Shown here: piece by piece, positions 1 through 58,794 of the stretch
Layout: every line of letters starts with the position of its first letter
How positions within the stretch are numbered: the first letter of the stretch is position 1
Made by a program: the position numbers and the translations under genes
Notes under the pieces: generated by a model
What the model saw: the letters and a program-made list of their open reading frames with translations, nothing else
Databases searched by the model: none
Told to the model about the DNA's origin: nothing
Origin: Niabella drilacis
GTDB lineage: Bacteria; Bacteroidota; Bacteroidia; Chitinophagales; Chitinophagaceae
DNA: 58,794 nucleotides
Direction: 5' to 3'
Assembly (NCBI RefSeq): GCF_900101395.1
Contig: NZ_FMZO01000025.1
Span: 1-58,794, forward strand

Positions 1-326
1 TAGAATTATATACCCTCAAACGCTGTGTAAACATCATAGTGGAATTGGCAGGCAAGATCTCAAGTTCTATTGTAGCTATTGTACCCAACAGGTCTTTTGC
101 CAGAAACCACAAGTTTAAACGAAAAAATCGCTTTAGTCCCATGTACAAATAAAGCACAATCAGCTGCTGAAAACAGGATCCGCTTTGCCAGAAAAGCCAG
201 AAACCTTAAGGATCAGGCTCATGGTTGTACTATGCCCATTACCTACAATAGTAGCAACCATCGCAGATGCCTGTCTCCCTGGAAGGACGATCCTGGATAC
301 AGACTTTTCTTATTTTAATAGCATTG
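1..326 (+). mobile_element. 3' part of an IS4-family (IS231-like) insertion sequence
   Basis: The element enters from the left edge and ends in the inverted repeat CTTATTTTAATAGCATTG (309-326). This is the exact reverse complement of CAATGCTATTAAAATAAG at 58494-58511, where another copy of the same type of element begins in the same orientation. It is followed by GTGTCCTCAC (327-336), the same 10 bases that precede the right-hand copy, so these bases are the likely target duplication. The transposase tail is at 3-152; the 156 bases between its stop and the repeat look non-coding. Family assignment rests on the terminal-repeat style and on the partial transposases. Confidence 0.75.
3..152 (+). 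CDS. C-terminal end of an IS4-family transposase (partial)
   Basis: An open frame runs in from the window edge and stops at TAA 150-152. Its last residues (about VPNRSFARNHKFKRKNRFSP) form the short basic tail with a PNR/PxR element followed by K/R-rich sequence that is usual at the C-terminus of Bacteroidota IS4/IS231-type transposases. The catalytic DDE core lies outside the window. The assignment is supported by its place just inside the terminal inverted repeat at 309-326. An unrelated frame at 79-318 is also open but has no family resemblance. Confidence 0.45.
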   Translation, partial: ELYTLKRCVNIIVELAGKISSSIVAIVPNRSFARNHKFKRKNRFSPMYK

Positions 327-336
327 GTGTCCTCAC
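327..336. repeat. Probable target-site duplication, half of a REP-like palindrome
   Basis: GTGTCCTCAC directly abuts the IS end and is followed by AAACCAC. At the other window edge the order is GTGGTTT then the same GTGTCCTCAC then the IS start. Joining the two flanks gives a palindrome with arms GTGGTTTGTG and CACAAACCAC around TCCT. The duplication could be read as 4 bp (TCCT) or 10 bp; 10 bp fits IS4-type elements better. Confidence 0.6.
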
Positions 337-540
337 AAACCACCAGTAATTACGCATTTTAATAAAATTGATTCCGGTTCATTATCAGATGTAAAAAACC
401 AGTGGCCGGCTGTTAAGGACCTGCTCCGGGTGTAACGTTCAATGTTTCAGTTGGGGCGGTTTTATGCCTGACACTGGTTTCCCCTTTTGCTATTTCAAAT
501 ACTGTTCCGAGGGTTCGGGACTCAAATCTGATTGATGGCT

Positions 541-49688: not shown

Positions 49689-50594
49689 CTACCTGAGCTG
49701 GATCTTCCCAAACTCGCTCCTGATGGAGATCTTACGATCGGTCCTGGATGAAGGCGCGGTATATTTCATTTCGGTTAACCGGCCTCCGTCCTTATCGGTC
49801 AGTTTAAGGTCGCTGTTGTTCATGACCTTCCCGAAATTGGTTATAATATCGATATTGGCGTCGAAGGGTTTGGGAAAAGAGATCGTCAGGTCAGAATATT
49901 TGGTCTCAATTTTTACATTCCTGATCGCCGGGGTAAAACTGATCGAGGGTTTGGTACAAAACTGGAAGTTTCCATCAAAATTGCCCGAGAGTTTTCCGAT
50001 CTCCACCTTTGAAAATTTTACGTGCACCTTGGTGTTCTCCAGTTCCCGGGCGATCAGCTTCCCGAAATCGACAGATAGCCGCTCGGTGTTGGCCAGGGTA
50101 CCGGTAGTCAGGTCTCCGTATGACTGGGACAGCTCGGTGGCACCCGAACGGTCAGGTATCGTTGTGTTGCCAAAGGAGTTGGTTACTCTCAGGTTGGCGG
50201 TGGATGGCAGGGTCACCACATAGTTGATCTGCATGGATGAGCTTTTGCCGCGGCCGGTATTGTTCCGGGACCGGATTTTAGTTTCAAATGAAACATCTGT
50301 GCCACTGCTTTCCTCAATATGAATACCATCAAGGATAGCGGAAGCTGCCTCGTCGCTGTTGGCTTTAACCGTGATGGTTACTTCTACCTTGACTTCGTTT
50401 TTGTTCCAGTTGACTACGGTTACGTTCCCAAAAGAATTTTTGATAGAAACCCGGGAGCGATCCGTTAGGGGGTACGACCGGGAGATCGTTTTCCTTTTTT
50501 CGGCATTCCATTCATCGCTATCGTTATAGGCCCTGGCGTTGGAAACCGCCAGCAGTAACAGGAGCAGGCTAAATATTTTTATATGATGCTTCAT
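49689..50594 (-). CDS. DUF4097-like secreted protein, third gene of a sigma-factor operon
   Basis: 301 residues with a signal peptide (MKHHIKIFSLLLLLLAVSNARA). The rest is beta-solenoid-like, with repeated units of the kind NSFGNVTVVNWNKNEVKVEV, TNSFGNTTIPDRS, VDFGKLIARELENTKVHVKFS and SEFGKIQLR: the DUF4097 (adhesin-like) pattern. Periplasmic or surface location, function unknown. Its start overlaps the anti-sigma gene by 26 bp. Confidence 0.85.
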   Translation of the reverse strand: MKHHIKIFSLLLLLLAVSNARAYNDSDEWNAEKRKTISRSYPLTDRSRVSIKNSFGNVTVVNWNKNEVKVEVTITVKANSDEAASAILDGIHIEESSGTDVSFETKIRSRNNTGRGKSSSMQINYVVTLPSTANLRVTNSFGNTTIPDRSGATELSQSYGDLTTGTLANTERLSVDFGKLIARELENTKVHVKFSKVEIGKLSGNFDGNFQFCTKPSISFTPAIRNVKIETKYSDLTISFPKPFDANIDIITNFGKVMNNSDLKLTDKDGGRLTEMKYTAPSSRTDRKISIRSEFGKIQLR

Positions 50595-58383: not shown

Positions 58384-58443
58384 GTGTCCTGGCTGAGGAA
58401 AGCGGGTGTGATAATAAGCTGGCATCAAAATTATTTCTTTTCT

Positions 58444-58465
58444 CGGTCAGTGAGGACACTGACCG
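58444..58465. repeat. REP-like palindrome with GTG-AGGA-CAC core
   Basis: CGGTCAGTG (58444-58452) and CACTGACCG (58457-58465) are perfect complements around AGGA. Read on the other strand the core is GTGTCCTCAC, the same 10 bases that flank both IS copies. Confidence 0.7.
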
Positions 58466-58483
58466 TGGCGTGGGCCGTGGTTT

Positions 58484-58493
58484 GTGTCCTCAC
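58484..58493. repeat. Probable target-site duplication of the right-hand IS copy
   Basis: GTGTCCTCAC preceded by GTGGTTT and followed directly by the IS terminal repeat; identical to 327-336. Confidence 0.6.
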
Positions 58494-58794
58494 CAATGCT
58501 ATTAAAATAAGGCGTATAATCACCTTATGGGGAAAAACGCCTTATTTTGTGTTTGAAAACTAAAATATATGTCAAAAGTAACAAAATCTGAAGGAGCGCG
58601 CAGTAGCGAAGGCTCTAAAAAAAATCTTTTCTTTTGTTGAGCGCCCCGTTCTGGATAAGCAATATCTTAACCGTTCGGTTGATTTTACCCGTAACACCAA
58701 ACTTAGCTTTTCATCCATTGTCCTGAAGATTGTTCATGGTTTTACCGATTCTGTGGAGTATGAACTATCTGCGTTTTTACCCCGGCTCAACCTG
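58494..58794 (+). mobile_element. 5' part of an IS4-family (IS231-like) insertion sequence
   Basis: Begins with the terminal repeat CAATGCTATTAAAATAAG (58494-58511), the exact inverse of 309-326. A 12-bp inverted repeat AAAATAAGGCGT (58504-58515) / ACGCCTTATTTT (58537-58548) overlaps the terminal repeat and lies just before the transposase start. Such hairpins block translation from outside transcripts in several IS elements (known for IS10 and IS231-like elements). Truncated by the window edge. Confidence 0.8.
58569..58794 (+). pseudogene. IS4-family transposase, N-terminal part, with an internal frame change
   Basis: ATG 58569 reads MSKVTKSEGARSSEGSKK and, in its own frame, stops soon after, at TGA 58638-58640. 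From the A8 tract 58617-58624 a second frame stays open to the window edge and reads IFSFVERPVLDKQYLNRSVD ... LSFSSIVLKIVHGFTDSVEY, the N-terminal domain of IS4-type transposases. With seven instead of eight A residues the two frames would join. It may be a decayed copy, a slippage site or a homopolymer error. The frame is otherwise intact here. Confidence 0.7.

Follow-up and report, generated by a model that had tools for sequence, protein, structure and literature searches.

How does an insertion sequence (IS) come to land, copy after copy, at exactly the same position of a dispersed repeat? The question is raised by the window analyzed here, which is the whole of a 58,794-nucleotide stretch of Niabella drilacis DNA and is contig C24 of a genome of 6.1 Mb in 45 contigs. 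Each edge of the window falls within a copy of the same IS, a different copy at either edge, and a preliminary description of this DNA proposed that the IS is directed to the loop of a palindromic repeat that is dispersed in the genome. Genome-wide comparison agrees with this proposal, as all seven copies of the IS lie in the same hairpin centre and empty palindromes exist.

The insertion sequence and its family

The right-hand IS copy is represented in the window by its left end (58494..58794, + strand), which is cut by the contig end, and the left-hand copy by its right end (1..326, + strand), which is cut by the contig start. Over their common bases, they are identical to six other left ends and six other right ends of the genome, respectively. 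The left end begins with the 18-bp terminal inverted repeat CAATGCTATTAAAATAAG (58494..58511, + strand), the exact reverse complement of which is found at the right end (309..326, - strand). The terminal repeats are thus perfect over 18 bp, as had been claimed, and beyond bp 18 the two ends diverge (GCG vs AAA). The 18-mer has 14 exact matches genome-wide, all near contig ends, and the 301-bp left end used as a DNA query finds seven places, which coincide with the seven left ends among these matches. Together with the seven right ends, this amounts to seven IS copies. Two additional matches to the 18-mer with two mismatches each, C18:86343 and C25:309793, adjoin no copy of the 10-bp core described below; the former is the end of a different element. 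No copy of the IS is read through, and because every copy stops at a contig end, the flanks of one copy can be paired only via their orientation and the TNA triplets described below. The interior of the IS, including the catalytic part of the transposase, is absent from the assembly pieces found.

The transposase is represented by its N-terminal part in an open frame (58615..58794, + strand), with 63 and 40% amino acid identity to relatives from two other genomes, G043 and G157, and by the C-terminal end of the frame with its stop (3..152, + strand). Transposase models of Pfam and NCBIfam match neither of these pieces, and the family assignment therefore rests on the relatives and on the ends. 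G043 (MKWG01000011.1, Sphingobacteriales bacterium 44-15) belongs to another genus and contains a decayed copy of 808 bp that has ends of the same kind and 76% DNA identity, and a fragment of this copy matches NF033592 with an E value of 3.5e-7 and 29.7 bits (cut-off 115). G157 (DHEF01000004.1, Chitinophagaceae bacterium UBA4857) contains a 1387-bp element that matches PF01609 (E value of 2.7e-12, 47.3 bits, cut-off 23) and, of the DDE-type Y-R-E-K motif, reads Y..R...E ahead of a frame break. Contig-database scans for close relatives, where the host's own records may have been excluded, returned none in one case and only G043 and G157 in the other; a weak match with 35% amino acid identity was found in G109.

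Members of subgroup IS4 are described as having ends of the pattern -AATR--------WTW---- and a target duplication of 10-13 bp, and the ends of subgroup IS231 as beginning CAT-------AA--TAA (PMC2266710). CAATGCTATTAAAATAAG fits the former pattern and the 10-bp duplication GTGTCCTCAC falls within the range of subgroup IS4. Hence, of the earlier label IS4/IS231-like, the IS4 part is retained on the basis of the relatives' profiles and the ends, while the IS231 part is ruled out by ends that begin CAATGC.

A second short frame (MSKV.KS.G.R...), which runs into an A-run, is present upstream of the transposase frame in the window (58569-58640) and at locus L052, and its conservation extends to the G043 copy. 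For the transposase frame itself, there is no clear ATG start, and a frameshift or an unusual start is possible.

The target hairpin, its MITE and its REP family

As the preliminary description had stated, the IS copies at both window edges adjoin GTGTCCTCAC. The left copy of this 10-bp target duplication is at 58484..58493 (+ strand), and an exactly matching right copy, which belongs to another insertion and is followed by AAACCAC, is at 327..336 (+ strand). Genome-wide, GTGTCCTCAC or its complement GTGAGGACAC is found directly outside all 14 exact IS ends, and the flanks are related at all seven copies. The 10-mer occurs three times in the window versus 0.02 times expected, a count that none of 100 shuffles reaches, and 70 times in the genome versus 10 times for a reversed control. 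It consists of 3 bp of arm, 4 bp of loop and 3 bp of arm at the centre of the hairpin GTGGTTTGTG-TCCT-CACAAACCAC, which is split by all seven copies, with both orientations represented. In the window, the left arm, the loop and the first three bases of the right arm (GTGGTTT GTG TCCT CAC) occupy 58477..58493 (+ strand). The empty target had been predicted to be a palindrome around TCCT, and the intact hairpin GTGGTTTGTGTCCTCACAAACCAC indeed stands in IS-free copies. Empty palindromes are also found elsewhere: an exact search of the genome finds the pattern GGTNNGTGTCCTCACNNACC 55 times and its reversed control not once.

Outside the 10-mer, every IS flank is one half of a 130-bp repeat that is non-coding, is present in many copies, is bounded by terminal inverted repeats that are imperfect (TAATAAGCCGGCATCAAAATTATT / TAATGAACCGGAATCAATTTTATT) and is flanked by a target duplication, as a miniature inverted-repeat transposable element (MITE) is. 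It bears two hairpins, CGGTCAGTG-AGGA-CACTGACCG and then GTGGTTTGTG-TCCT-CACAAACCAC. The target palindrome is the second of them, and the IS is therefore nested in another mobile element. At the right edge of the window, the left part of one MITE copy (82 bp, 58412..58493, + strand) differs from the consensus at one position and is preceded by TGA, the left copy of a 3-bp TNA duplication (58409..58411, + strand). At the left edge, the right part of another MITE copy (58 bp, 327..384, + strand) is followed by TCA, its right TNA copy (385..387, + strand); its left part lies on contig C39 (L011), judging by orientation and the TCA duplication. The preliminary description also placed an intact palindrome with the same core 18 bp upstream of the right-hand flank. 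That palindrome, CGGTCAGTGAGGACACTGACCG, is present and, by direct reading, is the first MITE hairpin (58444..58465, + strand), but it lies 11 bp before GTGGTTT; measured from its core, the distance is roughly 18 bp.

IS-free MITEs, which were collected as copies with the exact core only, form 23 rows that correspond to 20 or 21 loci, as L068 repeats L063, L067 is L020 read on the opposite strand, and L018 may be the same locus as L060. Of the 18 rows for which both flanks were extracted, 17 have a TNA duplication (16 of 17 when distinct loci are counted), a count that leaves out L018, L056, L060 and L061, for which a flank was not extracted, and the duplicate L068. A 1125-bp IS630-type element at C18:86329-87453 (L015), with DDE_3 and HTH_33 in two frames, has ends that resemble those of the MITE and is flanked by TTA and TAA (TA/TA), compared with TNA at the MITE. 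IS630-derived MITEs have ends in common with a full-length IS630 element and a TA duplication, and the resemblance of the ends makes the element on C18 a possible source of the MITE transposase.

Covariation of the two MITE hairpins is not clearly shown. Among eight hand-chosen MITE copies of the genus, one pair is changed on both sides, a result equalled in 464 of 500 shuffles, and the covariation score is reached by 31 of 500 shuffles; pairing in the same alignment extends to 94% of cells versus 30-46% when the alignment is slid. By eye, a subterminal part of the MITE, CAATTTTATTAAAATGCG (e.g., L022 1467-1484), matches the IS terminal repeat at 14 of 18 bases, a likeness that may be chance. 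Four loci of related species (L193, L194, L195 and L196) have their last 24-37 bp in common with the MITE and have other interiors, which suggests a wider element family with the same end.

The core of the target also occurs outside the MITE. Three hairpins with this core (GGTNNGTGAGGACACNNACC) flank a gene on contig C19 (~49883-50443; L069 1084-1644) that encodes a RAYT-type protein of 187 amino acids with the motifs NHIH, WQ and YIHCNP. The gene, which was identified through its open reading frame and NF047646 (REP-associated tyrosine transposase; E value of 2.8e-19, 69.4 bits, below the cut-off of 80), matches PF01797 weakly, and it is not among the five Y1 genes that a PF01797 profile search finds in the genome. 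Its relatives in G016 and G077 (70 and 59%) also lie beside the same hairpins. The pattern GGTNNGTGTCCTCACNNACC is present in 17 of the 99 genomes searched, the host included, and the reversed control in none. A short dispersed palindrome that also flanks a RAYT gene is what characterizes REP elements, and the core of the target hairpin is, as judged from these sequences, the core of a RAYT-linked REP family. An NNGGC tag follows the AGGA-oriented hairpin in 16 and precedes it in none of 33 hairpins outside the host's MITE copies, all from fetched loci (two of them, L100 and L114, in MITE-like copies of G008); as read by eye, both MITE hairpins of the host carry the tag, and the two tags face each other.

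RAYT/TnpA-REP subclass 2.6 of the Bacteroidetes is described as having 'atypical' REPs (PMC6006769). The C19 system resembles it in the motifs NH[LIV]H, WQ and YIH.NP, in hairpins without a GT[AG]G tag and in the presence of genomic copies elsewhere, and differs in the Y motif, which is YIH[QN]NP in the subclass and YIHCNP here (PMC6006769). Moreover, the hairpins hit by the IS lie inside a MITE and are not those that flank the RAYT gene, whereas the description of subclass 2.6 contains no mention of IS targeting in the part consulted (PMC6006769). Seven viral-contig records (eight stretches, L172-L179) also contain the pattern GGTNNGTGTCCTCACNNACC. Elsewhere in the genome, Y1-transposase genes lie within direct-repeat arrays at L047 (C29 near 589 kb) and L048 (C16 near 400 kb), with spacings of 155 bp and 305-307 bp, respectively, and the repeats at L048 have short palindromes.

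How the target is chosen

All seven insertions are in the second hairpin and none in the first (0.008 versus an even split), and the predicted single-strand energies of the two are -10.9 (first) and -10.6 (second) kcal/mol. Because no insertion falls in the first hairpin, although its core is the same, symmetry and core cannot be the whole rule. Two relatives of the IS also sit in palindromes. The G043 copy lies in one with arms of 16-17 bp and unrelated sequence, which is centred on GTGGCGATAC / GTGTCGCCAC and has the same GTG-N4-YAC centre as the target in the window; the G157 element lies in CAGGTC-GGGA-GACCTG, where the duplication covers the loop and one arm and is off centre. At random window positions, a palindrome with arms of at least 8 bp is centred nearby in 6 of 20000 samples and one with arms of at least 6 bp in 222 of 20000. 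Among distant members with about 30% amino acid identity, G549 has one clear palindrome (7-bp arms) and one weak one, and G090 a weak one; no target palindrome is found in G475 or at either copy of G983, where the duplication is readable (imperfect, 8/10, at the second G983 copy). No readable duplication is present at L081, L082, L083, L084, L088, L089, L090, L093, L157, L158, L159 and L160. As palindromes are mixed or absent among the distant members, hairpin targeting is at most a trait of a small branch and not of the whole group. IS4-family elements flanked by near inverted repeats and not by direct duplications are seen at L084 (G105) and L088 (G413).

We consider it highly probable that an IS of the IS4 family, subgroup IS4, takes the dyad centre of REP-like hairpins as its insertion site, because all seven copies are at the centre, the split MITEs are about as diverged as the IS-free ones while the IS ends are identical, and the G043 relative has the same geometry. 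The transposase would make 10-bp staggered cuts, with the two-fold symmetry of the site as its guide, and would move the IS by cut and paste, which is the usual IS4 mechanism. The MITE would have been moved by an IS630-type transposase and, by taking up or evolving two REP-type hairpins, may have multiplied the landing sites of the IS. The points against this explanation are that no copy is read through, that the assembler may have collapsed the IS ends, that the transposase pieces in the window match no transposase model, that the first hairpin is unused, that the G157 duplication is offset, that the distant relatives are mixed and that two pairs of flanks are inverted.

The same sites could be selected if the transposase recognizes one specific duplex sequence, such as GTTTGTGNNNNCACAAAC, in which case the capacity to form a hairpin would be incidental. 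This reading is a serious but less favored possibility. The seven sites are nearly identical, which makes sequence and structure inseparable in this genome, and the twin hairpin goes unused although it contains this 10-bp core as well; yet the target of the G043 relative has this symmetry in another sequence, and the G157 relative sits in another palindrome, an argument limited by the fact that their transposases differ and could read other sequences.

The loops of the split hairpins bear on whether DNA shape is recognized. The loop is oriented as for a direct duplication at 12 of the 14 IS ends and is inverted at L005 and L006, both of which are right halves with TGA. By orientation and triplet, only L002 and L004 can be their partners; L004 is the right edge of the window, and both partners have the normal loop. 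Two IS copies thus appear to be flanked by inverted and not by direct 10-mers, and so is the single G043 copy. At IS-free loci, inversion is seen once in the first hairpin (L056) and not at all in the second. In yeast, template switching between inverted repeats is described as making the arms alike and inverting the spacers (PMC8604942). By analogy, template switching after insertion is the likeliest cause of the inverted loops, although they could mark insertion into a hairpin with mismatched loops. If the transposase recognized the shape of an extruded hairpin or cruciform and not its sequence, the inverted 10-mers at two of the seven copies and in G043 would reflect insertion into a hairpin whose strands had differently oriented loops; we regard this proposal as unlikely.

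The IS ends sort into seven left and seven right MITE halves, with the IS in one orientation in five copies and in the other in two. In each orientation class, the TNA triplets of the left and right halves form equal multisets (TGA, TGA, TCA, TAA and TTA; TTA and TAA), an agreement that occurs by chance in 3604 of 200000 shuffles of the 14 triplets. The IS ends show no differences in 3122 compared bp, where assembler collapse or gene conversion could mask differences between copies, and in the split MITE halves, the 924 bp compared outside the loop contain 10 differences from the consensus, no two of them at the same position; the chance of all ten landing in the MITE part is 3.9e-7. IS-free MITEs have 18 differences in 2179 bp at 18 loci, a count from which L067 and L068 (duplicates), L056 (truncated), L060 (not located) and L062 (insertion) were dropped, and the split MITEs are therefore about as diverged as the empty ones. 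None of the differences is common to two IS-bearing halves, and those at positions 62 and 119 are also found in IS-free copies. The MITE has matches in 11 of 16 same-genus relatives (one end only in G010 and G015); the copies in G001, G003, G005, G008, G011 and G016 show two hairpins, and that in G012 looks decayed. As a DNA search finds the IS in none of these 16 genomes, the MITE family is older than the IS here. From these comparisons, the identity of the IS ends and the divergence of the MITE halves, which is like that of IS-free copies, point to a recent arrival of the IS and to seven separate insertions into pre-existing MITE copies.

A single insertion into one MITE, followed by spread of the MITE-IS composite through the MITE's own ends, would place every copy at the same MITE base and is compatible with TNA triplets that represent each composite's own duplication. 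It would, however, age both parts together, whereas 10 differences in 924 bp of MITE and none in 3122 bp of IS require MITE copies older than their IS, unless the IS copies were homogenised by gene conversion or by the assembler; both orientations of the IS are also found. On this divergence contrast, composite spread is judged quite improbable. That GTGTCCTCAC is part of the IS, or adjoins every exact IS end by chance, is refuted by the empty sites, since the 10-mer is present at the 20-21 IS-free MITE loci and beside the RAYT gene, and the G043 relative has GTGGCGATAC / GTGTCGCCAC at its position.

Comparison with known REP-aimed insertion sequences

REP-directed IS had been noted as known in proteobacteria, to which Sinorhizobium meliloti belongs as an Alphaproteobacterium. 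REP-aimed IS are reported in five families, IS4 included, and one of them is ISRm22 of the IS4 family in S. meliloti, the insertions of which lie on the axis of a palindromic consensus (PMC1525189). All its copies are in REP elements at the axis of palindromy, as for the IS in the window, and three of its nine copies are described without perfect direct repeats, which is another likeness; its repeats are 6 bp compared with 10 bp here (PMC1525189), it belongs to subgroup IS4Sa and not to IS4 (PMC2266710), and its description, in the portion consulted, mentions no MITE, whereas the IS studied here is nested in one. As ISRm22 has already been reported, REP-aimed IS of the IS4 kind are known. In a survey of the family, some subgroup-IS4 elements and ISRm22 are credited with 'spectacular apparent insertion specificity' in the target arms (PMC2266710). 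Such subgroup-IS4 elements resemble the IS in the window in the end pattern, the duplication of 10-13 bp and the specificity into target arms; in the parts consulted, the survey names no targets for them, and its main text contains no word beginning 'Bacteroid-' (PMC2266710).

In the open-licence literature, no IS4-family case that targets a REP palindrome was found in print for the Bacteroidota. As far as that literature reaches, what is new is a host in the Bacteroidota, an IS nested in a MITE that carries REP-type hairpins, a twin hairpin that is left unused, and duplications that are inverted. These findings extend REP-aimed IS4 transposition to the Bacteroidota, where a MITE with REP-type hairpins offers the IS tens of landing sites, and the twin hairpins with the same core, hit seven times and not at all, provide a natural experiment on whether transposases of this kind recognize a sequence or the shape of the DNA.

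All copies of ISPsy8, ISPpu9, ISPpu10 and ISPa11 are likewise described at one REP position, which for ISPsy8 is the hairpin axis, as here (PMC1525189). Their duplications are 3 bp, 2 bp, 2 bp and none, respectively, compared with 10 bp for the IS in the window, and ISPpu10 is listed in IS110 and not in the IS4 family (PMC1525189).
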